The notes: generated from the sequence alone by a model not told the origin. 64,000 nt of DNA from a virus (IMGVR_UViG_3300027917_001949:88754-152753), one strand, 5' to 3'; shown: positions 1 to 49,572, numbered from the stretch's first letter. Numbers and translations: made by a program.

Positions 1-450
1 AACATCACCTGAGCAACCCTCACCATAGTCACCGATACGGAAGCAATAAACGACTTTCCCAGGAAAATTTACCAGGAGTCTTTCGGCTCTCTCGATACAC
101 TTTTCCATGTATTCGCTATCCCATTCCCACTCATAATCCCACTTGTAGGCATCTGCTTCGGTTTCGTCATCGTAACGCCAACCACCTGTACGTATCAGTC
201 TGGCTAATTCACTCCTTTTTCCATTGCCGGTGAAGCACTTAAACCTTTCTTTGCACGAGTCGCACTCTGGTTGCGGTGGGTTGCAAAGTAATATTCCTTT
301 CTGTCGTTTCATCCACGTAAGTAATAACTCAGCTTCTTCAAGACTTGCACCTTTGGACATAAGTTCAATAGGCAGAGTCGGTCTCTTATCCAATACGATA
401 AGAAAACTAGCCGAACTGCTATTACTTACGAAACCACTACGAATTTTCAT
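1..450 (-). CDS. Cys-motif protein with SNSSS N-terminus (3' end outside window)
   Basis: The reading frame starts at ATG 448-450 and is open to the left edge, so the protein is truncated by the window. The N-terminus (residues 4-16) reads RSGFVSNSSSASF, a signature I know from many small phage proteins of unknown function. Residues 56-74 carry the recurrent cysteine motif of this genome: C56, C63, C66, then RF and C72 followed by FT. The remainder is acidic and aromatic-rich. The start overlaps the end of the upstream gene by 14 bases. Function unknown; the motif suggests metal or Fe-S binding (inference). Confidence 0.75.
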   Translation of the reverse strand, partial: MKIRSGFVSNSSSASFLIVLDKRPTLPIELMSKGASLEEAELLLTWMKRQKGILLCNPPQPECDSCKERFKCFTGNGKRSELARLIRTGGWRYDDETEADAYKWDYEWEWDSEYMEKCIERAERLLVNFPGKVVYCFRIGDYGEGCSGDV

Positions 451-652
451 GCTTTATCCATTGACTTGTCCAGCATGTGAATCTAAACTCACACCCACCA
501 CAAGCTTCGTTCTTCTCCATCCACGTTGCACTATTTTCACTTGCTTTAAATGTCACCGCTCGACATCTGTCCATGTATGACTGCATTGTATATGAATTTT
601 CAGTGCCGAACGGTGACAATAATACATTGATATATCTAGTCTTACGTGTCAT
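437..652 (-). CDS. small Cys-motif protein
   Basis: A 71-residue protein. Near its C-terminus it carries C51-GG-C54-EFRFT-C60-WT, the C-x2-C-x5-C motif shared by many proteins in this window. A possible fourth Cys is C30. No other domain is recognised. The start ATG overlaps the TGA of the upstream 619-residue gene (ATGA), so translation is probably coupled. Function unknown. Confidence 0.7.
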   Translation of the reverse strand: MTRKTRYINVLLSPFGTENSYTMQSYMDRCRAVTFKASENSATWMEKNEACGGCEFRFTCWTSQWIKHENS

Positions 653-2508
653 CGCAATAGACTTATAAACGTATCCTTTTCAATGGTCTCAGGAGACAGG
701 TCAATGTCGGCATCATCTGGTGAATCAACCATTTCCGCACCTGCATCAGATAGAACCTCAGCTAGGTCAATCGGATTCTTGTAGTAGTTGATTAACCACT
801 GCCTGCTATGCTCTGAATAGTCATTTGAGCGTGACGTTATTGACCTACCAAGATTTGTCTCGGCAAAGTAGAATCTCGTCATCTCAGAACCAGTAACCAA
901 TAACCCCAACATTTTTTGTTTGTCGGTTTGCGTAGAGTTTGTGATAACCTCGACGTTATTAGGGTCAACGGTACGCTTGTTCCATAATCTTTCCTTGTTT
1001 GATGCTACTAATATCTTGAATGGTACAGGAACGCTCGCATTGTAATTGAAGTAGTTCAAGTACATTAGATACGCTTTTTCCTCTTTCTGCTTCTTCACGT
1101 AGTACAACTCTGTCGCACCATTACGTGCATCAGTAAGGTCACCTGAGAATAGAACCCTATCCTCGTAACGGTATGAGGCATCCCATCCAAATTTCGTGTT
1201 CAGTTCAACTAACGAAAGGTCAAGGTCGATTCTGTGACCATCGACATTCTTCCAGTAGACACCGGCAACCATGTTCGTTGGTAACTCTACATAACTTCCA
1301 GATGGTAAGTTACCAGTAAACTGCTTCTCTGTAGCAGGAAGAGCATAGTGTATGGTATCAGGTATGTATACTTTCTTACCCTCTACATTACCTGCTATAT
1401 CCTCAACGATTGAATACATCACATCATCAAGAACTGATGTAACTTCGTCCTGCTTAATAAAGCTGAATGACTTCGCATAACCACGCCCATTACGTATCCT
1501 ATAAAGGATTGATGGTGACTCGCTCAACCTGAACTTAAGAGCATATGCAAGTCTAATCTTTCTGAATACATTTACGTCATTAATTGCATTAGCAAATGTT
1601 TCGTGGTCAAATGTACCCTGAGCTATCTTTGCTGTAACAAGATTAAGGTAGTCCTCCGGTAGTGGTGTGTGATGTTTAGGGGCAAGACGACGTACCTTGT
1701 TAACCAATGTCTTTAGTCTCTGATTAGTTCTGAATGCTAAGAACAGCGGTTTGAACCTGTAGAATATCTTTGCCAATTCCTGTAATCCATACTGCTTCTC
1801 GTAATCGGTGAATATTTTGGTTACATGAAGATTGTCTGTTGATTTGATTTCCTGTATTACAGCACGGCTCTTGATTAGAAGAGTCTTACCGGTTGCCTTG
1901 TAGATGGCATAACGTAATAGCTCAGTCGGATTCTTTGGAATTAGACCGGCATATTCATATAGCATTATTTTGACTTCTTTATTCTTCACCTTTTCGAAGT
2001 CAGTGAAGTCAACAAACAGAGCAACCTCTACCACCGCTTTGATGGTGTCGGTATGTAATGCAATACCAGATTCAAGCATTGCTATCAGCTTCTCAGTTAG
2101 TTCCTCTTTCGTATACCCCTTGATGACAGTCAGCTTTATTTTATCCAACTTCACCTTGGGAACGTTTAGAGCTTCATCCGGTATATACACATAGTCGCTG
2201 TCAATACCAAAAGCTTCGAAACCATAGGTAGTAAAGTAGTGCATGATTTGCTCAATAACAAGTTGCTCGATACTGGCATCACGAACTTTTGCCCAGGATT
2301 TGTGGAAGGTGCTGTTCATTTGCTCGCCAGAAAGACCAACGGTCTTGGTGACCAGTTCGACTAACTCGTTATAGTTGGTATAATTAGCAATAACCTCCGG
2401 TGCAAAAACGAATCCGAGTGGTATCGTTCGTTTCATCAATGCTTCATCGGTCTTTGTCTCCCTCTTGTTTATAGGTAATGCTCTGAATAATTTAATTGTT
2501 GCTTCCAT
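649..2508 (-). CDS. large hypothetical phage protein
   Basis: About 619 residues. I prefer the ATG at 2508, which follows a GAGGGAGAAG ribosome site, over an in-frame ATG 36 bases upstream. The N-terminal two-thirds is helical and Lys/Leu-rich. The last third has a beta-rich stretch with DLDLSL, GWDASYR and FSGD segments, which is faintly reminiscent of TerD-like beta-sandwich proteins, a weak resemblance I would not call. No signal peptide, no transmembrane segment, no catalytic motif seen. It is the longest gene of the left block and has a structured leader (2522-2593). Function unknown. Confidence 0.75.
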   Translation of the reverse strand: MEATIKLFRALPINKRETKTDEALMKRTIPLGFVFAPEVIANYTNYNELVELVTKTVGLSGEQMNSTFHKSWAKVRDASIEQLVIEQIMHYFTTYGFEAFGIDSDYVYIPDEALNVPKVKLDKIKLTVIKGYTKEELTEKLIAMLESGIALHTDTIKAVVEVALFVDFTDFEKVKNKEVKIMLYEYAGLIPKNPTELLRYAIYKATGKTLLIKSRAVIQEIKSTDNLHVTKIFTDYEKQYGLQELAKIFYRFKPLFLAFRTNQRLKTLVNKVRRLAPKHHTPLPEDYLNLVTAKIAQGTFDHETFANAINDVNVFRKIRLAYALKFRLSESPSILYRIRNGRGYAKSFSFIKQDEVTSVLDDVMYSIVEDIAGNVEGKKVYIPDTIHYALPATEKQFTGNLPSGSYVELPTNMVAGVYWKNVDGHRIDLDLSLVELNTKFGWDASYRYEDRVLFSGDLTDARNGATELYYVKKQKEEKAYLMYLNYFNYNASVPVPFKILVASNKERLWNKRTVDPNNVEVITNSTQTDKQKMLGLLVTGSEMTRFYFAETNLGRSITSRSNDYSEHSRQWLINYYKNPIDLAEVLSDAGAEMVDSPDDADIDLSPETIEKDTFISLLR

Positions 2509-2521
2509 TCTTCTCCCTCTG

Positions 2522-2593
2522 CCGGAAAGGGTGGTCATATTCACGGTATTTCCGATTGTGGAACTAATCCACTCAGCCTGACCACCCTTCCGA
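2522..2593 (-). promoter_or_regulatory. long inverted repeat in leader of 619-residue gene
   Basis: GGAAAGGGTGGTCA at about 2525-2538 is complementary to TGACCACCCTTCCG at 2580-2593, with one bulged base and a loop of about 41 bases. On the minus-strand transcript this 13-bp stem ends about 15 bases before the start codon at 2508, next to the GAGGGAG ribosome site. It may control translation or stop upstream transcription. No T-run follows, so it is not a typical terminator. Confidence 0.5.
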
Positions 2594-2730
2594 ACTAATG
2601 CGGCGAGCAGTATAAAAATGCAAAGTTTATTTTATAGGAACTGCTTCTGCCGTTATTTACCTGAGCGAGTAGTAAATATCGCACAGCCATCCCACCCGTA
2701 GGTAGGTAGGCTGTAAGTCAGAAATAGGAA
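2594..2730. other. leader region without a gene
   Basis: I see no plausible ORF. It holds a GTAGGTAGGTAGG microrepeat near 2697 and two near-copies of ATAGGAACT(G/A)CTT at 2634 and 2726, the second overlapping the radical SAM stop codon. No convincing sigma-70 promoter with both boxes was found. Confidence 0.4.
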
Positions 2731-3744
2731 CTACTTATGCTCATATTCCAAACTGAGATTATACACTGGACAACTTCTACAATTACTTAATACTCGTGTA
2801 CGGAACATCTTTGTTTCCTCAGCATTCCACACATCTCGTACAAAATCCTCACATCCCAGTACATCCACACCGGAGAACTCGGGTTCACCCTCAGAAAAAC
2901 TGCATGGGTATCCTATTCCATCGACATTAATGTAGTAGGAAAACAGTGTACTCTCACACGGTTCGGACATTGTTTTGTATAGTTCGTAATTCTTATCGTC
3001 CTTAACAGCTTCCAAGAAATTGTTAGCCGTACAACTATCGAATCCGAACTTACCACCGACCTTGACCGCAAGGTCTATCAACTCTTTGAATTTCTCCATA
3101 GAGTCCAGTTGTTTTAGAGTATTCCTTTCCCCTTTCGGTTTTAACCACAAGAACACTACAGCGTTTAATTTCGCTAGACGGGGGTCTGCAATCCGGTCAC
3201 GCAGCACGTTGCAGCATTTTTCATAGGTTAGTTTTGAAAGGAGACAGTGTATGTTAACCTGTTCCATGCCTTTGTCTGTTAAATTCTTAACAGCATTGTA
3301 ACAGGTATCCTTGTCGTAGAGACTGACGGCGACTGCACCGCAGGTTTTCACCAGTCGGTCATACCGCTCGTCAGTCATCCGTTCACCGTTTATGGTGACA
3401 TTGGGGATAACGTTGTTATCACGACAGTAATCCATTATCTTCCACATATCGGGATTGCCGTCAATGTCCCCGATTCCGAAAGCAATTTGTGTGAGGTGTT
3501 TGGGGAATTTATCGAACATTGTCTTAAATGTTTCAAATTCCATGTAGTCACCGTACTTAATGTTAGATTTGTAACACCATAGACATTGTCTACTACATAC
3601 AGTGCTAATTTCTATGTCCATTATCTCCGGTCCAAATGGCGACCAATCAGGGTCATCATCTTCAGTCTTACCCCAACGAGCAAAGAACCCGTTAGTTGTG
3701 TTGAATACAAAATTATAATCCGGTGATTTGAATTCTTTAAACAA
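2731..3744 (-). CDS. radical SAM protein
   Basis: 337 residues from a TTG start with a GGAGAAAG ribosome site. The radical SAM cluster ligands are CSRQCLWCY (C-x3-C-x2-C, about residues 50-58), expected to bind a 4Fe-4S cluster that cleaves S-adenosylmethionine. The GIGDIDGNPD segment follows where the family has its GGEP-like SAM loop. The C-terminal part has spaced cysteines (CESTLF, GYPCSF, CRSCPV) like a SPASM-type auxiliary cluster region. Substrate unknown; no precursor peptide is obvious next door. The preceding 88-residue gene overlaps its start by 8 bases. Confidence 0.85.
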   Translation of the reverse strand: MFKEFKSPDYNFVFNTTNGFFARWGKTEDDDPDWSPFGPEIMDIEISTVCSRQCLWCYKSNIKYGDYMEFETFKTMFDKFPKHLTQIAFGIGDIDGNPDMWKIMDYCRDNNVIPNVTINGERMTDERYDRLVKTCGAVAVSLYDKDTCYNAVKNLTDKGMEQVNIHCLLSKLTYEKCCNVLRDRIADPRLAKLNAVVFLWLKPKGERNTLKQLDSMEKFKELIDLAVKVGGKFGFDSCTANNFLEAVKDDKNYELYKTMSEPCESTLFSYYINVDGIGYPCSFSEGEPEFSGVDVLGCEDFVRDVWNAEETKMFRTRVLSNCRSCPVYNLSLEYEHK

Positions 3745-4865: not shown

Positions 4866-5435
4866 CTATTCATAATCCTTTGATTGGAGTAACTTAATTG
4901 CATTAAGGAATTCATCAGCGTCCGGTAAGTCATCTAAGGCAAACACCGCCACAGGTTTAACGGTGTCGTAATCACCATCAGTATCGTAGTCATCAAACCT
5001 ACCAATAATAGTAATATCTTCCCTATCGTTCTTATCTCGGTCTATTTTCATACCACCTTCAAACACTTCAAACGTGTTCTCGTCAAGGTCAATCACATAT
5101 GCCCACTCGCAAAATAAACTGTCACCGGCGAAATCAATGTTGTTGACCAGCTTCAATTTTCTCTTGCTGTTTTGAATCATTGGCAATAGCTTGGCACTGG
5201 TATCACGGCTAAATTCTGCACGGTCTGCCAGTGTCTTCTGTGGTATTTTATCGTATTCTGCACCGGTTATCCATGTTAATTTGTCTACCTGTTTCTCAAA
5301 CTTCGGTCTGTCCCACGTATGCAAGAACTGTAAAATGTCAATCCCCTGACCGCTAGGATAACCATCCCATTGTCCGTATTGAGCAACCTTGTACTCACCA
5401 CCTTTATACACACAAATTAAATGTCTCGTTCCCAC
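4866..5435 (-). CDS. conserved phage protein of the GTR-H/N-L AQYGQWDGYP type
   Basis: 189 residues. The start is GTG at 5435, which has GGGAGGACTATA just upstream and gives the N-terminus VGTRHLICV; an upstream in-frame ATG would add an unlikely tail. The segment KVAQYGQWDGYPSGQG (about residues 17-32) is a signature I know from a widespread phage/prophage family with unknown function. The start overlaps the preceding TAG by one base. Most of the C-terminal part is acidic (DLDENTFEV, DDLPDADEF). Biochemical role unknown. Confidence 0.8.
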   Translation of the reverse strand: MGTRHLICVYKGGEYKVAQYGQWDGYPSGQGIDILQFLHTWDRPKFEKQVDKLTWITGAEYDKIPQKTLADRAEFSRDTSAKLLPMIQNSKRKLKLVNNIDFAGDSLFCEWAYVIDLDENTFEVFEGGMKIDRDKNDREDITIIGRFDDYDTDGDYDTVKPVAVFALDDLPDADEFLNAIKLLQSKDYE

Positions 5436-5830
5436 TATAGTCCTCCCGTATGACGAAATTCTTTTTCGGTATAACAACGAAACCTATCGTAACAGTCATC
5501 ACATGACTTCACTGTAAAGGTTTCTTTAAGAAACTCCATACTATCGGTGTCACCATCCTCTGCCTTTTTCCTGATAAACTCAATCATCTTTGGTGATGCA
5601 CAGATTATGTCAGCATTGGCTTTGTCTTCTACCTCACAATTCAAACCATGCGTGAACCCTATGCTTCTTCCTTCTTGATGGAGTGTGGCAATTTCCATGA
5701 CCGCTTCTCCGGTAAGCTCTCGCAAGCATTTCGAAGCTTTTTTACGGACACAAATATCCTTGCATCCGTTGTCATCAGACGGATACCACTCGCCTTGTGT
5801 ATAGTTAGGTAACTTAATTCTAACTGCCAT
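5435..5830 (-). CDS. Cys-motif protein
   Basis: 131 residues using the ATG at 5830 (MAVRIKLPNY), which overlaps the stop of the kinase gene by 11 bases; a longer frame would run deep into the kinase gene. The C-terminus holds C110-DD-C113-YDRFR-C119-YT. Three further Cys lie at 23, 27 and 35. No other domain recognised. Confidence 0.65.
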   Translation of the reverse strand: MAVRIKLPNYTQGEWYPSDDNGCKDICVRKKASKCLRELTGEAVMEIATLHQEGRSIGFTHGLNCEVEDKANADIICASPKMIEFIRKKAEDGDTDSMEFLKETFTVKSCDDCYDRFRCYTEKEFRHTGGL

Positions 5831-6530
5831 AACTGCTACGTGTTCCTTCGATGTATGTCCTACCCTCAATAATGAAGTCATCCAGTTCTTCTTCGTTGAG
5901 CCATTCCTTAATCTTGATGACTCGACCATTCCTAGTCGTCTCTCGTATGACCTTTATTTGATTTGGCATCTCTTTTGCAAGCATTTCAAAGTTGTTGCGA
6001 ACCACTCCAAGATAGTTAAAGTTTCTTTCGCACCACTTCACAGTACCTTCTTCCTGCCAACGTTCCTCAATTCGCTCAATGTTCCACTCTAATGGGGGAA
6101 GGAGAACGATGAACTTCTCCGGTTTTGGTGTGTTTGATATTTCATATTGAAAATCAGCATTAATAAGAATCTTCTCAGCGTAATGAGCCGGTAACCACCC
6201 CATCTCCACACATGTACGCACATATGCGGTGTCATCAAGAAAACACCTGTCGCCAATCACAACTGACTTAGGTGGTTGTGTCATCGCATAGTTAAGGTTC
6301 TCCCTATGTTCAATACAGTGTAGTGCGTTTCTCCAAAGTTGGCGGCTGACATTATCTGTCAATCCCTCCATATGAGCTATTTGCTCTTTAACCCGACCAG
6401 TATCAAATTGTTTTAAGTCATCTATCAGCGTTGATTTGCCGACCCCATGTGGACCACACAGATACACGATTTGTCTGTTGACCCTCGTATCAAACTCGAA
6501 TACTGGTGGTGGTGTTATTTCACAAGTCAT
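5820..6530 (-). CDS. P-loop (deoxy)nucleoside/nucleotide kinase-like protein
   Basis: 236 residues. A Walker A motif GPHGVGKST lies at about residues 27-35; a GDRCFLDDTAYVR segment near residue 92 resembles the DRS/DR(S/Y) substrate region of deoxynucleoside and thymidylate kinases; a basic RIEERW segment resembles a lid. Probably phosphorylates nucleosides or nucleotides in the cytoplasm, in line with the nucleotide genes at 51-55 kb. Could instead be a general AAA_28-type NTPase. ATGA overlap with the upstream gene. Confidence 0.65.
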   Translation of the reverse strand: MTCEITPPPVFEFDTRVNRQIVYLCGPHGVGKSTLIDDLKQFDTGRVKEQIAHMEGLTDNVSRQLWRNALHCIEHRENLNYAMTQPPKSVVIGDRCFLDDTAYVRTCVEMGWLPAHYAEKILINADFQYEISNTPKPEKFIVLLPPLEWNIERIEERWQEEGTVKWCERNFNYLGVVRNNFEMLAKEMPNQIKVIRETTRNGRVIKIKEWLNEEELDDFIIEGRTYIEGTRSSYGS

Positions 6531-6883
6531 TCTTCGTCCTCCACAGTTACTTGAATGTGCCCAAATTCCGCAGGTACTTTAACGTGCCGTAACTCATCAG
6601 TATAAACCACGTCATTCTTTAATTCTGGTGTGGCTATTTTCTTAACTAAGTCACGGGCGGTCACATCTCGTAGTGACTTAACTCCCTTAAATGATGACAA
6701 TGGTATCTCAATAGGTTCATTACGGTCTGTAAAACACTGAAATCGCAGACTACATTGCCCGCACAACGTATCAATGCTTCGCTCTCGCCCGTAACAATGA
6801 TACTCCTTATATCTCTCGTTATCATAATTATGATTCTTGTCATCAAATACTATTCGTATTACCTGACCATGGTCTCTACTCAT
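6527..6883 (-). CDS. Cys-motif protein
   Basis: 118 residues from ATG 6883 (ribosome site AGAGG); this start overlaps the glycosylase stop by 8 bases. Motif residues: C30, C41, C44, R47-F48, C50, then FT. The C-terminal half is beta-strand-like with KVPAEFGHIQVTVEDEE. Function unknown. Confidence 0.65.
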   Translation of the reverse strand: MSRDHGQVIRIVFDDKNHNYDNERYKEYHCYGRERSIDTLCGQCSLRFQCFTDRNEPIEIPLSSFKGVKSLRDVTARDLVKKIATPELKNDVVYTDELRHVKVPAEFGHIQVTVEDEE

Positions 6884-7604
6884 AACAGTAAAACCTCTGT
6901 TTACATGATTTACATTTATTATCTCCCGTCCACCACTTCTCACACGTGTCTCGGAATGCGTTCATTTCGGCAATAATAGGTTTTGCATTAATGTCCTTGC
7001 TGAGTGGTGAATCAACTAGACGGAATTGCTTATCGACATGCTGATGTTGCATAGCATATTCGACAGCCTCTTTTATCTTAGTCCTTATATCTCTACCACG
7101 TTCGCTATTCTTTCCCCCACTATGAGCTATTGCCGCAGGATGGTATGACACGATTACATCATAATTTCTCCAATCAAAGGTAGTGCAGACAATCTCTTTC
7201 ATTGGTATCTTACCATTCCCACCAAGAGCTACGTACGGTACTTTACCCATACAAACAATGACTTCTGGTAATAGATTATCTATCTCCGCTATCATCCGTT
7301 CGTTGCACCACGTAATTTCTGCGTCGTTGGGGGTGCGATTATAGATTCGTCCGTCATTTACCTTTGTAGGTCTACATGTGACAGCGTTAACATAACTCGC
7401 ATCTTCACGCCTGCCACCACACTCCTCTATAATATCCATCAAGTCTCTGCCAGCAATCCCCACTAGAGGACGACCTTCTTGTGTCTCATTGAATCCTGGA
7501 GCTTCGGCAAGATAAAGTATCTTAGTGTCGTTTATCTCTGACGGCACAAGAACTGCTTGTTTTAGCGTACATTCGTCGCACTTACCCTTTGGTGCTTTTT
7601 CCAT
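6876..7604 (-). CDS. uracil-DNA glycosylase, family 4-like, with C-terminal Cys motif
   Basis: 242 residues. N-terminal C9-DE-C12 matches the Fe-S ligand pair of family 4 UDGs; AEAPGFNETQEGRPLVG (about 33-49) corresponds to the family active-site loop GEAPGxxExxxGxPFVG, and SYHPAA (about 150) to the second motif. It should remove uracil from DNA as the first step of base excision. Beyond the normal domain there is an extra tail ending C231-KS-C234-KQRFY-C240-YE, the module shared by about 27 proteins here. The tail is not a usual part of this family. Confidence 0.85.
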   Translation of the reverse strand: MEKAPKGKCDECTLKQAVLVPSEINDTKILYLAEAPGFNETQEGRPLVGIAGRDLMDIIEECGGRREDASYVNAVTCRPTKVNDGRIYNRTPNDAEITWCNERMIAEIDNLLPEVIVCMGKVPYVALGGNGKIPMKEIVCTTFDWRNYDVIVSYHPAAIAHSGGKNSERGRDIRTKIKEAVEYAMQHQHVDKQFRLVDSPLSKDINAKPIIAEMNAFRDTCEKWWTGDNKCKSCKQRFYCYE

Positions 7605-7761: not shown

Positions 7762-8050
7762 CATCCCATCCATTAAAAGGTTTGAAACATCTACCAGTTT
7801 TTAGGAAGTCATCTTCGGTCTCCATTATTGCTGGTTCTCTGTCAGGACAATAATGAAACCCTCTTTTAAGCATTTCTGCCTCGACAGTTTTTACCAACCT
7901 ATCTAGAAATTGCTTATAAGTTTCAGATGATTCTCTAAGATAGATAAACTCATGGTCACATACACCGGACATTGGCAATATATGTCTACCCTTAAACTTT
8001 TGGTCTTGCCAACCGTCTACGAATATCCAACCGTCTTTATATCGTGTCAT
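7742..8050 (-). CDS. hypothetical protein
   Basis: 102 residues; ATG overlaps the end of the upstream gene (ATGA). Mixed alpha/beta composition with YKDGWIFVDGW at the N-terminus. No domain recognised. Confidence 0.6.
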   Translation of the reverse strand: MTRYKDGWIFVDGWQDQKFKGRHILPMSGVCDHEFIYLRESSETYKQFLDRLVKTVEAEMLKRGFHYCPDREPAIMETEDDFLKTGRCFKPFNGWDDGQDNV

Positions 8051-8379
8051 TCTAAATTCTCTGGATAGTTTTTATCGCTCTTATCGACCTTTACCACATC
8101 TTTACCGGTTGCCACATAAGAGTCATGTTTGCTCATCGTATAGTTTATTCTTCCCTCACCAAACATATACTCCGCCAACCCCTTTAAGTCCTTTATTCCG
8201 TGTTCAAGTGCCATCTCCTGAGAAATGAACACCTCATTCCGTTCCGATAGACATTTGAATCTCAATCGACAACCCACACACAGATATTTCTCTCTGCCAC
8301 GACAATCAAATCTCTCTGTTGTCGTTATTATATCATGGTTGTGAGTTACCTTTGGTAATTCAAGCTTAATTGTTACCAT
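8047..8379 (-). CDS. Cys-motif protein
   Basis: 110 residues. Motif: C26-x7-C34-VG-C37-RLRFK-C43-LSERN. The N-terminal 20 residues form a beta-strand-rich start. It directly follows the RuvB-like gene with a 7-base overlap. Function unknown. Confidence 0.65.
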   Translation of the reverse strand: MVTIKLELPKVTHNHDIITTTERFDCRGREKYLCVGCRLRFKCLSERNEVFISQEMALEHGIKDLKGLAEYMFGEGRINYTMSKHDSYVATGKDVVKVDKSDKNYPENLE

Positions 8380-9669: not shown

Positions 9670-10233
9670 CTAGTAATGGGCATCTGCTGGTACTGCATAT
9701 ATATTGAGGTCGGCATATTCTTTTCTTGGTGACCCGTCATTGAGTACACTCCACTTCGATAAAACATTTTTTAGATGTTCCTCGTTACGAATACCCTCAC
9801 CGTCTTGGTCGTATAGTTTTATAGTATAACCAGCATACCTGCCACAATTATAACACCAATGTCTGAATTGACCATCATCCATTAATTCATCATCCGTTTT
9901 AATGTTTATGTCATTTCTGATGTACCTGATGTTCTCTATAAAATGTTCCTTCGTATACCCCATCGCCTCGTCAAGAATACTATTAATTTTTCCGGTGAAG
10001 CAACGAAATCTTTCACTACAAAAATCACACTTAACAGACCCAAATTCACCACATATCTTCGTAGCCACGGGAAGCTCACCCCACCGTGCAGTGGCATATG
10101 TTTCTTTAAAGGTACTGTAGTAATCGAATGGGAAATGTGATTCACCACAAAGGTCATCAAAGATACTCTCTGCCTGTGCTAGAGCATCTTCCTCATCCTC
10201 AGCGTAGACTAACGCATATATAACTGTGTGCAT
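9670..10233 (-). CDS. Cys-motif protein
   Basis: 187 residues. The N-terminus (YALVYAEDEEDALAQAESIF, then FPFDYYSTF) resembles a family of phage proteins with an Ala/Glu-rich helix and an FDYY segment, function unknown to me. Motif: C61-x7-C69-DF-C72-SERFR-C78-FT. A further CYNC pair follows at about 126. Starts one base into the upstream stop (TAATG). Confidence 0.7.
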   Translation of the reverse strand: MHTVIYALVYAEDEEDALAQAESIFDDLCGESHFPFDYYSTFKETYATARWGELPVATKICGEFGSVKCDFCSERFRCFTGKINSILDEAMGYTKEHFIENIRYIRNDINIKTDDELMDDGQFRHWCYNCGRYAGYTIKLYDQDGEGIRNEEHLKNVLSKWSVLNDGSPRKEYADLNIYAVPADAHY

Positions 10234-10682
10234 TATTCTTCACCCCATCCAAGTTTGTCTAAACCAAATTCTCGTACAATCTTATTCGCAGTTTTCTCAC
10301 CCCACCCCGATGCTACCGACCTCAATGAAAGGGTGATTATGTTGTGAGAGTATTCTTTCACATCAACGTATGGTAGCTCATTCAGAATCAAGTTCTTCCA
10401 CTGTAGTAACGTCCTACCTGTTCCGTTCGTTGTATCAACTTGCTTCCACTCCTCTGCCGTCAGGATAAGGTCATCACGATGCGTCCAGCACTTGAAACGA
10501 GCAGGGCATCGATTACATGTCATACGTGGACATTTCTCCGTAACAATTTCATTCCATCCGTTTTCTGGGTTCAAGTATTCAACACGAATCTGACGAACTT
10601 TCCTACGTACTCGTCGCTTCTTTGGTTCTTGTGATGCCAGTACTCGGTAGCGTTTATTCCACGCTTCTTCTACCTTGTTCAT
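10233..10682 (-). CDS. Cys-motif protein with basic N-terminal region
   Basis: 149 residues from ATG 10682 (GGAGA ribosome site). Residues 20-30 are very basic (PKKRRVRRKVR), typical of nucleic-acid contact. Motif with four cysteines: C51-x4-C56-NR-C59-PARFK-C65-WT. The C-terminal TANKIVREFGLDKLGW looks like a small helix-hairpin-helix-type tail, which is tentative. Confidence 0.65.
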   Translation of the reverse strand: MNKVEEAWNKRYRVLASQEPKKRRVRRKVRQIRVEYLNPENGWNEIVTEKCPRMTCNRCPARFKCWTHRDDLILTAEEWKQVDTTNGTGRTLLQWKNLILNELPYVDVKEYSHNIITLSLRSVASGWGEKTANKIVREFGLDKLGWGEE

Positions 10683-10687
10683 ACCGG

Positions 10688-11149
10688 TTATCTCTCCGTA
10701 AAACATTTGAATCGATGTAAACAAGTATTGCAATTGTTACCTAACTCCATGTTTACCTGTGACCCCGCATCGTTTAATAACGAAGCAAGCTGGATGAGTT
10801 GCCCTTTTGTAAAGTCATTGGCAGTAAAGATACGTGGTACGGTCTCTTGAACAGCTTCGACCCAATCTTTACTTTCCTTTAACCCCCAATATGTGACTTC
10901 ACGTACCGCACGAATTACCGCAATCTTATTCATCCCAATATCGGTAATCTTCATGGTACACATGTTAGGTTGATACGCTGTTCTACGATACTCGGTATCA
11001 CATGTTAGGCATTTGATTATCATTTCAGCTTCGTTAGTGTCGGTGTTGACTAACCGGATATAAAATGCTTCTTGCCCACAGCGTTCGCATGTAGCGTGTT
11101 CGAGTACGGTGTCTCCTATCAGCATTTTATTGGGTGGTGGTGGTTTCAT
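10688..11149 (-). CDS. L7/L12-like C-terminal domain protein with zinc ribbon and Cys motif
   Basis: 153 residues in three parts. A zinc ribbon (C21, C24, C47, C50); a segment at about 72-101 with KIAVIRAVREVTYWGLKESK, which matches the conserved core of the ribosomal L7/L12 C-terminal domain (K-V-I-K-x-VRE-x-T-x-LGL-KEAK); and a C-terminal C140-NT-C143-LHRFK-C149-FTER. In ribosomes that domain binds GTPase translation factors. The fold match is by sequence pattern only. Confidence 0.7.
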   Translation of the reverse strand: MKPPPPNKMLIGDTVLEHATCERCGQEAFYIRLVNTDTNEAEMIIKCLTCDTEYRRTAYQPNMCTMKITDIGMNKIAVIRAVREVTYWGLKESKDWVEAVQETVPRIFTANDFTKGQLIQLASLLNDAGSQVNMELGNNCNTCLHRFKCFTER

Positions 11150-11962: not shown

Positions 11963-12469
11963 CTATATTGCTTCCTTCATATCTTTTAACTCATTATATG
12001 AGTCCACAACAATATCTGTATCGTTCGCCCACTGCCAATTACCGGTGGTACATTTCACACCGTATGGGTATCCATTACACTCAAGGTTGCTTATCAGGAT
12101 ACCATACTCACGCTCATTATTCAATGCCTTCAACTGGTCAACAGTCCATCTCTCACCGAACAGTATCTCTGGTGACTCATTCTTTTTCTTACCCCTAATT
12201 TCCTCTGTCTTGTGAGATGTAGCACACTTAAATCTCTGACCACAGTCTTGGCACACATCTTCCAACCCCAACCGGTCAGCTTTGAACTCAATATCCTCGT
12301 CACATAGGACGTTTTGTGCTGAAATTACTTCTTGGTCGTAGAAGTACAAACCATATGTACCTCTTGGTATGTCGTCTAAGTTGGCAGGTATGCGAGTAGT
12401 CACCTCTCGTGTTTCGCTCTCTGCCACAAAAGCTCCTGGTTGATAAAAAGTTACGTAATGTTTTAACAT
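11963..12469 (-). CDS. Cys-motif protein
   Basis: 168 residues. Motif: C73-QD-C76-GQRFK-C82-ATS, with C56 as the nearest upstream Cys. N-terminal 50 residues are strand-rich (TYGLYFYDQEV), then a helix and a C-terminal alpha/beta portion. Overlaps the upstream gene by 7 bases. Function unknown. Confidence 0.65.
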   Translation of the reverse strand: MLKHYVTFYQPGAFVAESETREVTTRIPANLDDIPRGTYGLYFYDQEVISAQNVLCDEDIEFKADRLGLEDVCQDCGQRFKCATSHKTEEIRGKKKNESPEILFGERWTVDQLKALNNEREYGILISNLECNGYPYGVKCTTGNWQWANDTDIVVDSYNELKDMKEAI

Positions 12470-12723
12470 CGAATCACTCTCTCCACTAATTTCACTTGGT
12501 ACGTCCCACCATATTCTTCCCTTACGACTCTGCCGCTTCGTACCAAGCTTTTAATTACTGACTCTGGTAGTGCTTTATATTTATGCTTCTCGTCAAACCT
12601 TGTCGCAAAACACGGAAATCTTGCCGGACAATCATCACACTGGTCATCACAGGTAAGAATGCACATATCGTCAAGTAGACACTCTTCCTGACACTCGCTT
12701 CCACAATCAATTGATATTTTCAT
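12463..12723 (-). CDS. cysteine-rich Cys-motif protein
   Basis: 86 residues with eight Cys in the first 38: C7, C11, C15, C21, then C25-x3-C29-DD-C32-PARFP-C38-FA. The first four might bind a second metal. The C-terminal half is basic. Overlaps both neighbours by 4-7 bases. Confidence 0.65.
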   Translation of the reverse strand: MKISIDCGSECQEECLLDDMCILTCDDQCDDCPARFPCFATRFDEKHKYKALPESVIKSLVRSGRVVREEYGGTYQVKLVERVIRC

Positions 12724-13010: not shown

Positions 13011-13306
13011 CCTGTCCTCATAAAAGTTATTTCTAGTTGCTGTTCTCCCCGCACATTCAACACTTGTTGCACGTTCATGATAGTCCATTGACCATGTGAT
13101 ACGTTGTGATTATAATCATATTTTAACATACCTTGACACGATATGTCAAATCTTGTCGGAACAATTGCCTTAGTCTTTAATATTGACGACACGGGATGAC
13201 TATACACCACATGCCTTGCTCGTGTCATGCACTTGAACCTGTTCTCACAATCGTCACAATAGTCACCGATTATGTCTTTGGTAGATAATGATAAAGCCAT
13301 TTTCAT
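13007..13306 (-). CDS. Cys-motif protein
   Basis: 99 residues. Motif near the N-terminus: C17-DD-C20-ENRFK-C26-MT. The rest is strand-rich with no recognised domain. A possible internal promoter (minus strand TTGACA, 18 bp, TAAAAT at 13149-13120) lies in it. ATGA overlaps on both sides. Confidence 0.65.
   Translation of the reverse strand: MKMALSLSTKDIIGDYCDDCENRFKCMTRARHVVYSHPVSSILKTKAIVPTRFDISCQGMLKYDYNHNVSHGQWTIMNVQQVLNVRGEQQLEITFMRTG
13120..13149 (-). promoter_or_regulatory. possible internal promoter
   Basis: Minus strand TTGACA (13149-13144), 18-bp spacer, TAAAAT (13125-13120), inside the coding sequence of the 99-residue gene and about 110 bases before the next start. The spacer overlaps a TGACA-CGATA-TGTCA palindrome. 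Could be chance. Confidence 0.35.
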
Positions 13307-13575: not shown

Positions 13576-13924
13576 GATACACCCCCGCTTGCCGGAGCTT
13601 GTTCAAGTCAAACTCGGCTTCTCTGTTCGTCCAGCAGATGAATCTCATGTTACATTCGGTACACTGGTCGGGGTAGTTCTTACATAGTATTGGTACTTTC
13701 TGACCCCAATGTGATGCGTCCACACCCATGATTAATCTGCCCTGACCGTCCACAGTCAATCCGTCACGACGTAACGCATCGATGTGTTTACATGTACGGT
13801 TACCACGCTGGTTGTATATCCAGCTTGGGCAGTTACAGGAGAATAAGCCATTTTGGTCTACCTTGATGGTGTAGTTTCGTCTGCCACTAGACGATGGTAC
13901 TTCTGCAAAAAAGTTATATTTCAT
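13565..13924 (-). CDS. SWIM-like zinc finger protein with Cys motif
   Basis: 119 residues, start ATG 13924 (TAATG with upstream stop). Residues 30-47 read C30-N-C32 ... C45-K-H47, the CxC...CxH pattern of SWIM zinc fingers, which bind DNA or proteins. The C-terminal part carries C81-x6-C88-TE-C91-NMRFI-C97-WT. Thus two metal sites in one small protein. Role unknown; SWIM context suggests recombination or transcription. Confidence 0.7.
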   Translation of the reverse strand: MKYNFFAEVPSSSGRRNYTIKVDQNGLFSCNCPSWIYNQRGNRTCKHIDALRRDGLTVDGQGRLIMGVDASHWGQKVPILCKNYPDQCTECNMRFICWTNREAEFDLNKLRQAGVYRDR

Positions 13925-14157: not shown

Positions 14158-14501
14158 ACTGCACTTCCTACCCAACTCGGATTGCCAATTAATACTCCCC
14201 GTTCATCTATTTGGCGTGAACCATGATTAAATTTACGACAATAATGACACATGAATTTCAAGTTATAGTTGTACTGATGTTCGTTTATCGCAAATATACG
14301 GTTACAATACGGACATTGCATAAGATAGTAACCCTGTAGTTCTGCCCCGATTACGATGGTTTTCGTTGGTTCAATATTCTCCAACACCAACCACCGGTCT
14401 GTTCTCGTAGTGTAACATTTAAACCGCCACGGACACTCGTCGCAGTTTCCCTCACATTCACCCCAAATTGCAGTATTACCAAAGTGTGTTATTATCTTCA
14501 T
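14148..14501 (-). CDS. Cys-motif plus zinc-ribbon protein
   Basis: 117 residues. N-terminal motif C16-x3-C20-DE-C23-PWRFK-C29-YT; later CPYC ... CHYC (about 69-91) makes a zinc ribbon. Two metal sites. No catalytic features. Confidence 0.65.
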   Translation of the reverse strand: MKIITHFGNTAIWGECEGNCDECPWRFKCYTTRTDRWLVLENIEPTKTIVIGAELQGYYLMQCPYCNRIFAINEHQYNYNLKFMCHYCRKFNHGSRQIDERGVLIGNPSWVGSAVWK

Positions 14502-16961: not shown

Positions 16962-17419
16962 CGCCAAAACCTCTTTGTTGTTCTCGTGTTCCGTTGCATT
17001 TTTTGTGGGTCTTGTGAGAATACCTTACTATCACGAGGTTCTTCGTGTTGTGTTGTATAACATTTGAACCTATCCTGACAAGTGGTGCATATCTCACGTA
17101 TCTCCTTATTTAATAACTGCCGAATCTCGGAGTGTGGTCTGTTCTTACACTCTCGACATAGCGGTATGACAAAGTTACATGTGCTGTTCGTGTTAAATTG
17201 TAGCCGTTCAACTGTGGTGGGGAACAGGTTTTCACCTTTTACCAATCCACACAACGTGCAATACACCATGCGACTACGCTGACGTTCTTCCTTCCGGCAC
17301 TTATCACAGATAGGTTTAATGACGGTAACTCCGTCCTCTACCATCGTGTATGCCCGTACATTTTCATGTACGAAACCACAATTAACACACCAACCTATAC
17401 GATGTTTTGTGTTACTCAT
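16958..17419 (-). CDS. multi-zinc-ribbon protein with Cys motif
   Basis: 153 residues from ATG 17419. Four CxxC pairs (C11/C14, C38/C41, C54/C57, C88/C91) form two zinc ribbons, followed by C111-TT-C114-QDRFK-C120-YTT. The C-terminus is basic (RNTRTTKRFWR). Likely nucleic-acid binding (inference). Confidence 0.7.
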   Translation of the reverse strand: MSNTKHRIGWCVNCGFVHENVRAYTMVEDGVTVIKPICDKCRKEERQRSRMVYCTLCGLVKGENLFPTTVERLQFNTNSTCNFVIPLCRECKNRPHSEIRQLLNKEIREICTTCQDRFKCYTTQHEEPRDSKVFSQDPQKMQRNTRTTKRFWR

Positions 17420-17643: not shown

Positions 17644-18126
17644 TTACCTCATCGTTGTGAGACACTTAAATCTATCTGGACAAGTGCCACAATTCTCACC
17701 TTCTCCTAGTGGTAACTCCTCGATAGTTATTCGTAAAAATTTATTGAGATTCTTCGTGAGTATATCAGTCACGTCTTTCAATGCTGAATATCGAACCGGA
17801 CGGTGATTATAGTGCCATGCCCTTTTGGTTGCGGTGTTATCTCTGAAATCTGGACAACCTAGATAGTGATAGATTAGATAACGAGTACCGTCCTCAAGTC
17901 GTTCCACCGCATCCTCTTCCTCTTTGAGAAAGCCTTCCATCACCGCAGGTTGTCTTGCCGCTTTAGATTCTCTTACCAGAAGTTCCTTTCGAGCATCCTG
18001 AACTTTGTCAATCAGATTATCAGCTTCGAAATGAAACTCTTGTGGTATAACTGACAAACGTTTCATTAGGGCAGCAAGTTGTTCACGTATCTCATCGAAT
18101 TCTTTAGCCGCTTCCGTTCTGTTCAA
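17644..18126 (-). CDS. Cys-motif protein
   Basis: 160 residues from TTG 18126 (GGAAG upstream). N-terminal 60 residues form a long helix (coiled-coil-like). Motif at the extreme C-terminus: C146-GT-C149-PDRFK-C155-LT. A middle segment has RYLIYHYLGCPDFRDN. Function unknown. Confidence 0.65.
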   Translation of the reverse strand: MNRTEAAKEFDEIREQLAALMKRLSVIPQEFHFEADNLIDKVQDARKELLVRESKAARQPAVMEGFLKEEEDAVERLEDGTRYLIYHYLGCPDFRDNTATKRAWHYNHRPVRYSALKDVTDILTKNLNKFLRITIEELPLGEGENCGTCPDRFKCLTTMR

Positions 18127-24570: not shown

Positions 24571-24916
24571 CTACTTCCCCATCCTCTATTATTTTAGCAC
24601 GAGCCGCAATTTTTTGCAAGTCCACTCCATTCATTGCCAAGAACCTATCTATCAACTCATGAATGGTTGGCTCTTGCATACCATTGAACGGTACTTTGGT
24701 CAAGTCTTTATCGACATTAATATTCAAGGCATCACCGGAGTAGCATTTGAATTTTAATTTGCAATCCTTACATATATGGTCGTAATCGAGCTTGCCAAGA
24801 CACCGCTTGTCGGTGAGTAGTTTGTATTTCTTGTTATCAAAGGTAAGGTAAATCGGTTTGCCAGGAGCTTCCTTTAGCTCCTTAATTTCAGCCGTAAATA
24901 CAACAGTATCATCCAT
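24551..24916 (-). CDS. Cys-motif protein
   Basis: 121 residues. Motif C39-x9-C49-KD-C52-KLKFK-C58-YS (Lys replaces the usual Arg). Strand-rich N-terminus, helical acidic C-terminus. Function unknown. Confidence 0.65.
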   Translation of the reverse strand: MDDTVVFTAEIKELKEAPGKPIYLTFDNKKYKLLTDKRCLGKLDYDHICKDCKLKFKCYSGDALNINVDKDLTKVPFNGMQEPTIHELIDRFLAMNGVDLQKIAARAKIIEDGEVDENHQN

Positions 24917-25256
24917 TATTAACCTCTTTCTTTTTTAGATATGCTACCCAATAATCGGCAGCGTCCACTCTAACATCCCTACGACCACGACCTGCACCAC
25001 GACCACGCCACCGTATACCCCACCGTTGATGAACAAGAAATTTACTACACAAACGTCTGAACTCCTGCCCCTCTTTATCATTAGGTACTTCGAATGTGTA
25101 ATTTACGTCAATAGATACAGAATTTAATTGTCTACTTGTGACACAAGCAAACTTGTCATGACAACTAAGACATGGTTCATCATCATAATTAGGAGTGCCA
25201 ATCTCTTGTCTACACCTTGCTATTCTTCTATCTACCGGTTTCATCGACTGGTACAT
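24909..25256 (-). CDS. Cys-motif protein with Arg/Gly-rich patch
   Basis: 115 residues; ATG 25256 has GAGGGATTAG. Motif C15-x13-C29-LS-C32-HDKFA-C38-VTS. Residues ~78-92 are WGIRWRGRGAGRGRRD, an RGG-like basic patch typical of RNA or DNA contact. Function unknown. Confidence 0.65.
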   Translation of the reverse strand: MYQSMKPVDRRIARCRQEIGTPNYDDEPCLSCHDKFACVTSRQLNSVSIDVNYTFEVPNDKEGQEFRRLCSKFLVHQRWGIRWRGRGAGRGRRDVRVDAADYWVAYLKKKEVNNG

Positions 25257-25563
25257 CTAATCCCTCTTTCTTTAGGGTATAACATTTGAATCTATCCTCA
25301 CATACCCCACAAGCATCCAGTGCCCTGAACGTATGACAATCTCTAACGTCTACGAAGTCTTTCATTTGAGATGTATTTAGTATCCAAGAATTACCGTCCT
25401 CGAACGCTAGCCAGAAGCTGTCTTTACCTACCTTATGCCCGATGTATCTAATCCAACCAAACTTTCCGAGAAACGTCTCTTCTCCGATTCTGCCGGTTTC
25501 CTTGACATAGACTCTATCACCGACATGGTATGTATTAGTCTCTAACCGTAATGATTTACTCAA
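25228..25563 (-). CDS. Cys-motif protein with SH3-like N-terminus
   Basis: 111 residues from TTG 25563. Residues 12-60 (VGDRVYVKETGRIGEE, GKFGWIRYIGH) look like a small KOW/SH3-type barrel. Motif C76-x8-C85-GV-C88-EDRFK-C94-YT. Immediately follows the ligase gene, overlapping by 8 bases. Confidence 0.65.
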   Translation of the reverse strand: MSKSLRLETNTYHVGDRVYVKETGRIGEETFLGKFGWIRYIGHKVGKDSFWLAFEDGNSWILNTSQMKDFVDVRDCHTFRALDACGVCEDRFKCYTLKKEGLDVPVDETGR

Positions 25564-26476: not shown

Positions 26477-26673
26477 AATGTCCAACACCTGAATCTATAT
26501 TTGCAACCTCGACATGCCTTGTCTCGTGTTAGGTATTTAGGATTTCTTAGGCTACCAAGTCTGGTTATTCCTTGACACTCGCTGAGGTCATGGTCAAATA
26601 CGTTTCCGTCTGGATAATTCATACTATACTTTTTACGCATTGACTCACATACATCTATGTACCGCTTCCTCAC
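26473..26673 (-). CDS. Cys-motif protein
   Basis: 66 residues from GTG 26673, which overlaps the upstream TGA and follows GGAG at 6 bases. Motif at the C-terminus C54-RG-C57-KYRFR-C63-WTL; C33 is upstream. Directly precedes and is coupled to the ligase. Confidence 0.65.
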   Translation of the reverse strand: MRKRYIDVCESMRKKYSMNYPDGNVFDHDLSECQGITRLGSLRNPKYLTRDKACRGCKYRFRCWTL

Positions 26674-27002
26674 TTCGTACTCCAACACGCAAATCGTGCC
26701 TTGCACTCGCTACAATCATCTGGTGTAAGTGCCGTACGCCTACAAAAGGCAAAGATTGTAATATCGGATATACTCTCCCTTTCACGTGTTTCCACAACCA
26801 ACTCTGCTTTTAGTTTTCGCCATGCCTTGACAAATGCTTCTGTATACGCTACCGGTGTATTTGCTATTAACCTTGCGACTGCCGCAGCCGACTTCTCCAT
26901 CTCCTGTCTACCGGCTGCACGGGTGACAGGAACAGATGTTATGTCATATAAGTCACTATCAGCGTCACCTGCCAACATAATCTTTGGTTCGTTAGCTTCC
27001 AC
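26670..27002 (-). CDS. Cys-motif protein
   Basis: 110 residues from GTG 27002. Long helical middle (MEKSAAAVARLIANT, AFVKAWRKLKAELVV), then C87-x9-C97-SE-C100-KARFA-C106-WSTK at the very end. Function unknown. Confidence 0.65.
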   Translation of the reverse strand: MEANEPKIMLAGDADSDLYDITSVPVTRAAGRQEMEKSAAAVARLIANTPVAYTEAFVKAWRKLKAELVVETRERESISDITIFAFCRRTALTPDDCSECKARFACWSTK

Positions 27003-30312: not shown

Positions 30313-30766
30313 CCGGATGAAAGATGCCGTCCACCATCTCCTCCACGAAATATTCGTCCTCTGTATCATCACCATGCTCACCTTCGAACAGGCTAGTCCA
30401 GTCACCTAACGTATCTTTCGCTTCATCGTCCGTCTCTCCATATACAAAATAGGTTGTATAACTGGTATATGTCTGAGTAATACGGAATTTTCTAGCTTTG
30501 ATACTTAAACATTTGAAACGGTAACCACACTTGTCACACATGTCACTGCCACCATGTACAACCTGGCATGCAAGCATTTTCTGCCGATACTCAACTTTCT
30601 TCCCTCGACATTCCCTACATTCACCCTCATGTGATTGATTCTTACCACAGTGAGGACACCTATACCATGTCAGTTTCCTGCCGGTGCGTACGTAATGACA
30701 GTCCTTGCAGTAACCATGATATGTTGGTACACCTTTCTTACCACAGCCGACACATGTGTTAATCAT
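30305..30766 (-). CDS. multi-zinc-finger protein with Cys motif
   Basis: 153 residues. Four CxxC pairs (C5/C8, C20/C23, C37/C40, C50/C53) then C67-x9-C77-DK-C80-GYRFK-C86-LS. The C-terminal 60 residues (YTTYFVYGETDDEAKDTL ... YFVEEM) resemble the end of the protein at 30973-31350, so the two are paralogues. Confidence 0.7.
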   Translation of the reverse strand: MINTCVGCGKKGVPTYHGYCKDCHYVRTGRKLTWYRCPHCGKNQSHEGECRECRGKKVEYRQKMLACQVVHGGSDMCDKCGYRFKCLSIKARKFRITQTYTSYTTYFVYGETDDEAKDTLGDWTSLFEGEHGDDTEDEYFVEEMVDGIFHPVD

Positions 30767-30989: not shown

Positions 30990-31350
30990 AATAATTCTGG
31001 TCTAATTCCTCAACGTCTGTATCGTCGCCCCACGAGTTACTATTACCTTCCTCGTATACGTCTCTACCATTATCCCACACCAGTTCCCGTGCCTCATCCT
31101 TGTTCGTTGCATAGACGATACAACTATCGTAGCCGGAATAATACTCCATCACATGGTATCGTTTCATTTTAACAGTATGACACTTGAATCGAAAGTCACA
31201 ACACTGACACGCATCGATAGGTGTGCCAATAATATATCCACATTTAAGTATTTCCTGCCGGAGTTTTTCACCACGCATTTCACAATACCAACATGAATCA
31301 TATTGGTTATGTATTCGCCCACATTCAGGACATTTCCAAGTATTAGCCAT
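30973..31350 (-). CDS. zinc-ribbon protein with Cys motif (paralogue of 30305)
   Basis: 125 residues. Zinc ribbon C7/C10 and C20/C23, then C37-x10-C48-QC-C51-DFRFK-C57-HT. The tail (GYDSCIVYATNKDEARELV ... VEELDQNYYV) parallels the tail of the 30305 gene. Confidence 0.7.
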   Translation of the reverse strand: MANTWKCPECGRIHNQYDSCWYCEMRGEKLRQEILKCGYIIGTPIDACQCCDFRFKCHTVKMKRYHVMEYYSGYDSCIVYATNKDEARELVWDNGRDVYEEGNSNSWGDDTDVEELDQNYYVRPK

Positions 31351-33224: not shown

Positions 33225-33330
33225 GCCATCCACACCTATAACAGAAAAAGAATCGATATTTCCAACCCTTTACATTACGGTCAACGTAATGAGTCTCATG
33301 TCTTTGTAGGAAGTGCCGTAGATTTATCAT
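33205..33330 (-). CDS. small CxxC protein
   Basis: 41 residues, ATG 33330 overlapping the upstream TGA and preceded by AAAGGACTT. Basic, ends FFFCYRCGWHEKIDL, a half zinc finger that may dimerise around a metal. Function unknown. Confidence 0.55.
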   Translation of the reverse strand: MINLRHFLQRHETHYVDRNVKGWKYRFFFCYRCGWHEKIDL

Positions 33331-33746
33331 AAGTCCTTTTTCCTTTTCACATCGAAGCAACGAACCAGATATTTCTGCCGGTTTTCCATCTGGTCATGTC
33401 TGAACTTACCTCTGGCATCCCACCTGTTTCGTGATTCAAGCGTGGTTTGATATTCATTTGGTTGACCGGCATTAACAGTGATAAGTTCATCGGTTTTTTC
33501 ATACGGAAACATACCCCATTCAGCAAGTATGTCAAAAGCCGTCTCGATATACTGTTCACCGTAACCGTAAGTAAATGGTACTCTACCTATCAACTCATTA
33601 TTTACATAAACATTTACGCTATGGTACGTGTTGCCATTTGTTCGTTCAAACCATCTCTTTGCTTCAATCATCACGATACAATTGCCAGCACGATTTCCGG
33701 TCAAACATTTGAATCGATTATTGCATTGTTCACATACATTATCCAT
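33327..33746 (-). CDS. Cys-motif protein (N-terminal motif)
   Basis: 139 residues from ATG 33746 (GGAGACGGCA). The motif opens the protein: C5-EQ-C8-NNRFK-C14-LTG, with no upstream Cys. The rest is alpha/beta (YHSVNVYVNNELIGRVPF). Function unknown. Confidence 0.65.
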   Translation of the reverse strand: MDNVCEQCNNRFKCLTGNRAGNCIVMIEAKRWFERTNGNTYHSVNVYVNNELIGRVPFTYGYGEQYIETAFDILAEWGMFPYEKTDELITVNAGQPNEYQTTLESRNRWDARGKFRHDQMENRQKYLVRCFDVKRKKDL

Positions 33747-47945: not shown

Positions 47946-47982
47946 ACTTGCCTAACTTCGTAGTATATAAGTAGGGGAAGGT

Positions 47983-48733: not shown

Positions 48734-48740
48734 CAGTGGT

Positions 48741-48816: not shown

Positions 48817-48912
48817 GCTAGGGATAATATCTGTCGTCGATTTCCAAGGACCTTACATGCTTATGACGTTACGTCATAGATTTTATTTAGCAGGTATATA
48901 TGCTTACGACAC
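48804..48912. repeat. three ATGCTTA repeats and a palindrome
   Basis: ATGCTTA occurs at 48805, 48857 and 48900, each followed by (C/T)NAC-like bases. TATGACGT-T-ACGTCATA (48862-48878) is a perfect 8-bp palindrome that shares its ATGACG core with the preceding hairpin. No ORF or clear promoter here. Confidence 0.5.
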
Positions 48913-49155
48913 ATGAAGACAAGGTTAATAAACTGTCCAGCAGAAGGTAGTATATGGTGCGACGCTTTACACTGTGAGAAGTGTCCAGAGAGATTTCTAT
49001 GCTACTCAACAAAAGGTACGATAAAAATAGTTTCAAGAATACGTTTTAAACGCTTTCGTATTTTCCACTGGATGAACAAGTACGACGACGATAATTTAAA
49101 GGAAATAATTGAAAAGCAGACACATAATAGCGTCAGTAATCGACAGAGAAAATAG
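48913..49155 (+). CDS. Cys-motif protein with four clustered cysteines
   Basis: 80 residues. WCDALHCEKCPERFLCYS: C16-x4-C21-EK-C24-PERFL-C30, then a basic stretch (RIRFKRFRIF). The next gene has the same arrangement, so the two are paralogues. Confidence 0.65.
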   Translation: MKTRLINCPAEGSIWCDALHCEKCPERFLCYSTKGTIKIVSRIRFKRFRIFHWMNKYDDDNLKEIIEKQTHNSVSNRQRK

Positions 49156-49156
49156 T

Positions 49157-49399
49157 ATGACCACGGATATGTACTGTGATGCATATAACTGTATAGAATG
49201 TCCAATACGGTTTAAATGCTTCACTACTACTGGACATTTATACGTGTCATACGAAGAGTATCTGGAAATGCAACCGTTCCGCTGGAAGCTTCACGATGGT
49301 AGTAAAGGTAGAGAAATCCGTCGAGAGACGTGGTGTATCTCTGAAAGGTGTGACCAATGTCCAATTCGCAGTCACTGTACTATGATTCGAGACACTTAA
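49157..49399 (+). CDS. double Cys-motif protein, WhiB-like spacing
   Basis: 80 residues from ATG 49157 (a longer TTG frame overlaps the previous gene). YCDAYNCIECPIRFKCFT (C7, C12, C15, C21) and a second site ERCDQCPIRSHC near the end. The second lacks Phe and reads like a WhiB CxxCPVRxxC site. Confidence 0.65.
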   Translation: MTTDMYCDAYNCIECPIRFKCFTTTGHLYVSYEEYLEMQPFRWKLHDGSKGREIRRETWCISERCDQCPIRSHCTMIRDT

Positions 49400-49572
49400 A
49401 TGACCCTTCACTGTGCGTAGCATGTGATAAGAGATTTCAATGTTATACTTCTAGAAAAAGAAGTGAGGACGGATACTGTAATATCGATAGATTTCTGAAG
49501 TTACCTGATGGAGTAGTCAGAGAGGTGCAGATAAGGAAAGCAAAACGGCAAGGTCATTACTTCACAGAATGA
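49357..49572 (+). CDS. Cys-motif protein
   Basis: 71 residues, AAAGGTGTGACCA site. Motif C20-VA-C23-DKRFQ-C29-YTS; later basic stretch (QIRKAKRQGHYF). Third Cys-motif gene in a row. Confidence 0.65.
   Translation: MSNSQSLYYDSRHLNDPSLCVACDKRFQCYTSRKRSEDGYCNIDRFLKLPDGVVREVQIRKAKRQGHYFTE

Follow-up and report, generated by a model that had tools for sequence, protein, structure and literature searches.

Why would a phage attach the same short cysteine-containing peptide to dozens of its proteins? The question is raised by the last 64 kb (hereafter "the window") of the 152,753-bp IMG/VR virus record IMGVR_UViG_3300027917_001949, in which reading of the sequence alone had pointed to a repeated cysteine module in 27 genes. 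All 27 sites fit the pattern C-x2-C-x2-[RK]-F-x-C and lie in open frames at or near the listed gene starts, and a 28th, degenerate copy (CDQCPIRSHCTM) lies within one of the same genes. The observation thus holds, and its extent is larger than the original prediction had indicated, given that the complete record contains 48 sites. We find that, in a little-known group of large phages, dozens of small proteins that are otherwise unrelated bear this 12-residue Cys tag, and we consider below what the tag might do.

Sites were counted in stop-to-stop open frames, which makes the count independent of any gene caller. When the R/K position is left open, the corresponding DNA-level pattern (C-x2-C-x3-F-x-C) matches the 152,753-bp record 50 times, compared to once for a reversed-pattern control, and open-frame sites carrying [RK]F number 48. 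Nine phage records together hold 291 sites. Residue shuffling within called genes predicts 0.02 sites where 248 are observed in those genes, and chance is thereby ruled out. The spacing itself is also distinctive, as C-x2-C-x5-C occurs 339 times among all proteins, compared to 14 to 39 times for neighboring C-x2-C-xn-C spacings, and 308 of these 339 have [RK][FY] at the R-F positions. Of the 291 sites, a hidden Markov model (HMM) built on the module recovers 287; it also finds 22 further proteins, many of which carry RY in place of RF.

The related phages were found by a pattern scan of IMG/VR combined with terminase searches; a first, narrower version of the tag pattern had no match in IMG/VR. 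Sites per record number 57 in G008, 49 in G012, 48 in G000, 36 in G007, 32 in G001, 28 in G009, 21 in G010, 16 in G013, and 4 in G002. Eight further terminase sequences align with that of the window at 71 to 81% identity, a range that covers six of the eight related records. The other two, G007 and G013, are fragmentary and gave no terminase hit, yet they have gene families in common with the other records. None of 50,697 INPHARED records yielded a terminase match to that of the window, and the only INPHARED match was portal-like, with 20% identity to Bacillus phage G. Two control phages, Cronobacter phage GAP161 (178 kb) and Vibrio phage D479 (258 kb), contain 0 sites by pattern scan. A bacterial origin was considered and rejected. 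The strict pattern gave a single match in each of 33 stretches of genome_contigs, and only two of these (L150 and L153) look genuine when judged by reading translated open reading frames. Both are short contigs of metagenome-assembled genomes, matched by the strict pattern only, and are perhaps stray phage pieces.

The consensus of the 12-residue module is C-[DEN]-x-C-x2-[RK]-F-x-C-[YFW]-T. An aromatic residue (Y/F/W) follows the third Cys in 239 of the 291 sites and Thr stands beside it in 259, although neither position was part of the search pattern. These residues are retained alike at N-terminal, middle, and C-terminal locations (T/S in 95 to 99%, aromatic in 78 to 87%). Most tags have Asp, Glu, or Asn at position +1, and the mean charge of the tag is +1. 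Information content falls off on either side of the 12 residues, while synonymous codons for Cys, Arg, Phe, and Thr vary and third codon positions are largely free, being near background at most variable positions. Because codons vary in this way and conservation ends at both edges, selection acts on the peptide rather than on a DNA element. The suggestion that most modules have a further Cys 3 to 17 residues upstream was roughly right: such a residue is present 2 to 21 positions upstream in 228 sites (~78%), whereas 63 of the 291 have none. Counted by family, an upstream Cys is found in 154 of 193 (72 expected) and a downstream Cys in 28 of 193. The sites without an upstream Cys include whole families in which the module has just three Cys residues.

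After masking of the tag, BLASTP clusters the carriers into 193 families across the nine records, where "unrelated" means without relation by BLAST, and the tag occurs near the N-terminus, in mid-protein, or at the C-terminus. The family clusters, as well as the size and charge comparisons that follow, use untagged-gene calls from a home-made gene caller that misses small genes. Carriers are mainly soluble proteins of 60 to 200 amino acids, a size class in which 18 to 29% of proteins are tagged, compared to 1 of 238 proteins longer than 300 amino acids. Within the 60- to 200-residue class, transmembrane-like segments occur in 0 of 267 tagged and 32 of 845 untagged proteins (P = 2e-4). Tagged proteins are also more basic than untagged ones, and this holds for the sequence outside the tag too. 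Tagged genes lie mostly at 55 to 123 kb of the window's record, amid mainly small genes and on both strands, and none starts in the first 40 kb or past 140 kb.

The carriers with recognizable domains are a family-4 uracil-DNA glycosylase (UDG), a protein resembling the L7/L12 C-terminal domain, and a SWIM-like protein whose SWIM match is weak. Reciprocal-best ortholog pairs in which a tag occurs number 172, with a mean identity of ~58%, and 155 of them keep it strictly or loosely. The UDG shows most clearly that the tag may be present or absent: it is tagged in G000, G001, and G007, while the orthologs in G008, G009, and G012 end ~45 residues earlier without a tag. Since these untagged orthologs keep the UDG core, the tag is separable from the core of its carrier. 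Their ends (KQFRLL, RQLQLF, or KQLKLL) resemble sliding-clamp-binding motifs. Given the 193 families, the three tag positions, and the coexistence of tagged and untagged orthologs, the data bear out the earlier proposal of a transferable mini-module whose carriers otherwise differ in sequence. Gene neighbors hint at the replication and repair machinery as the site of action. In six of seven genomes examined, a gene of one tag family immediately precedes that for the family-A polymerase and usually overlaps it, and a paralog of this family lies directly upstream of the UDG gene in three of four.

What, then, might the tag do? We favor, at a probability of about 45%, a protein-level docking tag in which a metal-held knuckle is recognized by a common partner, with up to ~57 small soluble proteins per genome so marked. 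This reading is favored because the Arg, Phe, aromatic, and Thr residues stay fixed in unrelated carriers at any position. The module is also short, position-independent, and retained in unrelated proteins, as are docking tags and other linear motifs. Judging from the Cys pattern, the tag likely binds metal, and an iron-sulfur (Fe-S) cluster and zinc would look the same in sequence. The three invariant Cys residues and a floating fourth ligand would hold one metal center, either [4Fe-4S] or Zn. The fourth ligand would be the upstream Cys in ~78% of sites; in the remainder, an acidic residue, water, or a group supplied by the partner might take its place. The metal would fix a short knuckle that presents Arg-Phe and aromatic-Thr to the putative partner, and carriers of differing folds would thereby gather at one place, possibly the phage replication and repair machinery. 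Somewhat more tentatively, we suggest that this clade marks up to approximately one-quarter of its 60- to 200-residue proteins with a metal-centered, position-independent docking tag for one dedicated hub, and that newly acquired small proteins join the set once they gain it. The functions of most small phage proteins are not known. If the docking reading is correct, the phages possess an addressing system built on a metal-held knuckle, and naming its single partner would explain dozens of these proteins at once.

Several points weigh against the docking reading. The common partner is hypothetical, and the docking tag of the original prediction, one that marks a set of phage proteins, is the best-supported interpretation. 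In 63 sites there is no Cys within 21 residues upstream. AlphaFold predicts the module alone with modest confidence (predicted local distance difference test score of 68), and in the model predicted for UDG, the core agrees with UDG structures while the tag end has very low confidence. The replication link rests on a few neighboring genes. Finally, gene duplication followed by fast divergence could also yield families that BLAST finds unrelated, and duplication is indeed seen in the tandem array of G008.

This last point leads to a first alternative, in which the module has no shared partner and is a purely structural metal knuckle of one very prolific, fast-diverging gene family, propagated through duplication, fusion, and recombination. 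It would account for the C-terminally tagged tandem paralogs of G008, and many carriers are indeed small, some with additional zinc-ribbon-like Cys pairs. We nevertheless regard it as unlikely. The tag is found at three positions and on recognizable unrelated domains, the UDG core is intact in orthologs that lack it, and the Arg, Phe, aromatic, and Thr residues are constant regardless of carrier, which a structural knuckle would not obviously require. In the G008 tags, Trp is the preferred aromatic residue and Arg or Lys is never found two residues past the Thr, a bias that either coevolution with a partner or local duplication would produce.

Less likely still is a nucleic acid-binding element that holds phage DNA or RNA for each carrier. 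The arrangement C-xn-C-x2-C-x5-C resembles the MutY-type Fe-S loop, which contacts the DNA backbone (PMC12000561). The mean charge of +1, the basic character of the carriers outside the tag, and the UDG, SWIM-like, and polymerase-adjacent carriers are all consistent with this possibility. Arguing against it are the Asp, Glu, or Asn at position +1 of most tags, the exact x6 spacing in only 16 of 291, and the lack of a glycosylase domain in carriers other than the UDG, which has a conserved Cys set of its own.

Two further proposals seem improbable to a similar, greater degree. A virion-targeting tag, by which proteins would enter the capsid and be delivered along with the DNA, would suit small, soluble carriers and has a precedent in phage T4, where one short capsid-targeting signal is found on several different internal proteins. 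Set against this are the up to 57 tagged proteins per phage, the occurrence of the tag at any position, and the lack of tagged genes in the initial 40 kb of the record, a region with tail-type genes. An Fe-S switch that senses redox state, O2, or NO on many regulators is suggested by the WhiB-like Cys spacing, but carriers share no regulator domain and we found no evidence for the sensor that had also been proposed. Lastly, a DNA-level repeat, such as the in-frame Rickettsia palindromic elements that place the same peptide in unrelated genes, or a regulatory element can be dismissed along with chance, given the varied synonymous codons and the lack of conservation beyond 12 residues.

Tag sites and the tagged UDG gene of the window are listed below.

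Table 1. Tag sites and their genes in the window.
Feature	Position	Strand	Gene or context
Tag CDSCKERFKCFT	229..264	-	Gene starting at 450, MKIRSGFVSNSSS family
Tag CGGCEFRFTCWT	467..502	-	437-652
Tag CDDCYDRFRCYT	5468..5503	-	5435-5929
Tag CGQCSLRFQCFT	6728..6763	-	6527-6943
Family-4 UDG	6876..7604	-	C-terminal tag CKSCKQRFYCYE at 6879..6914; extension absent from orthologs in three relatives
Tag CVGCRLRFKCLS	8245..8280	-	8047-8379
Tag CDFCSERFRCFT	9994..10029	-	9670-10233
Tag CNRCPARFKCWT	10482..10517	-	10233-10733
C-terminal tag CNTCLHRFKCFT	10697..10732	-	10688-11149, probably the L7/L12-like-domain carrier
Tag CQDCGQRFKCAT	12218..12253	-	11963-12469
Tag CDDCPARFPCFA	12604..12639	-	12463-12723
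Tag CDDCENRFKCMT	13223..13258	-	13007-13306
Tag CTECNMRFICWT	13628..13663	-	13565-13933, SWIM-like
Tag CDECPWRFKCYT	14409..14444	-	14148-14501
Tag CTTCQDRFKCYT	17054..17089	-	16958-17440
Tag CGTCPDRFKCLT	17656..17691	-	17644-18126
Tag CKDCKLKFKCYS	24737..24772	-	24551-24916
Tag CLSCHDKFACVT	25137..25172	-	24909-25256
Tag CGVCEDRFKCYT	25276..25311	-	25228-25563
C-terminal tag CRGCKYRFRCWT	26479..26514	-	26473-26706
C-terminal tag CSECKARFACWS	26679..26714	-	26670-27002
Tag CDKCGYRFKCLS	30503..30538	-	30305-30766
Tag CQCCDFRFKCHT	31174..31209	-	30973-31350
Tag CEQCNNRFKCLT	33699..33734	-	33327-33746
Tag CEKCPERFLCYS	48973..49008	+	48913-49155
Tag CIECPIRFKCFT	49190..49225	+	49109-49399 (or start 49157)
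Second, degenerate tag CDQCPIRSHCTM, without Phe	49349..49384	+	49109-49399, same protein as CIECPIRFKCFT
Tag CVACDKRFQCYT	49414..49449	+	49357-49572

The window also encodes a radical SAM protein with a SPASM match (2731-3744, minus strand), which is present in four of five near-complete clade members and shares ~43% identity with Klebsiella, Enterobacter, Cronobacter, and Vibrio phage proteins. We considered it as a dedicated tag-modifying enzyme and rejected this role, as homologs occur in phages of Enterobacteriaceae and Vibrio, and two of these phages, GAP161 and D479, proved on scanning to have no tag sites although they share the protein. Thus, the protein is not specific to tagged phages, although it could still act on the tag without being dedicated to it.

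Other features were noted in passing. A multicopy family at L013:6000-10203 (minus strand), which runs into window positions 1-450, has several members that begin MKIRxGFVSNSSS, and tagged and untagged members are present within the same genomes. Intein-like insertions occur at G001:146192-147625 and G009:74971-76476, in the SWIM-like protein and the UDG of two relatives. Ku and ATP-dependent DNA ligase domains (window 22793-23551 and 25556-26488, both minus strand) may form an end-joining pair. A poly(A) polymerase head/HD protein resembling a CCA-adding enzyme is encoded at L012:13471-14826 (minus strand), and an Mtd_N domain protein, perhaps a tropism determinant, at L010:12334-13953 (plus strand).

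How does the module compare to known families? A profile search, which might have exposed a described zinc finger, gave no significant match over the tag in Pfam, NCBIfam, PHROG, or the PDB. At most 5 of 150 members match any one Pfam, NCBIfam, or PHROG family, those shared matches being weak, and the best PDB match has an E value of 0.35. Likewise, no similar phage motif is described in the titles or abstracts found by literature search. Within the libraries searched, a tag on this many unrelated phage proteins looks new.

Four families share parts of the Cys arrangement. WhiB proteins combine C-x2-C-x5-C with an upstream Cys, but their G[IVL]WGG motif is present in 0 of 291 tags. The Fe-S cluster loop of EndoIII and MutY has C-xn-C-x2-C-x5-C within a short stretch, as does the tag, with n = 6 and inside a glycosylase domain, whereas the first Cys of the tag floats or is missing. 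Among 150 carriers, Pfam matches at E <= 0.003 include no WhiB domain, no RecB/PDDEXK nuclease domain, and, in the complete list, no HhH glycosylase domain. The Cas4/AddB "iron staple" likewise joins three close C-terminal Cys residues to one distant Cys, and zinc is reported to be able to replace the Fe-S cluster at the Cas4-related four-Cys site of a related nuclease (PMC3466216). However, the invariant R-F and aromatic-T of the tag are absent from the staple definition, and in the PDDEXK_1 protein that the phage itself encodes, the corresponding CDNCYFIEHC stretch has no R-F. The SPASM domain of radical SAM enzymes shares the CX2CX5C core but continues with CX3C in a seven-Cys domain (PMC5715301). 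Only 1 of 291 tags has this continuation, none has the seven-Cys domain, and TIGR04085 (SPASM) matches just two members weakly (best E value of 0.031). The tag thus lacks the defining features of the SPASM and MutY-type groups, as well as those of WhiB and Cas4/AddB, to whose spacings it had been likened.

In function, if not in sequence, the docking tag that we favor has possible counterparts. We draw a parallel to the poxvirus ankyrin/PRANC proteins and the T4 capsid-targeting sequence as work-alikes only and claim no sequence relation. In both, one short signal connects several viral proteins to one machine. Those signals occupy a fixed end position and are carried by far fewer proteins than the phage tag.

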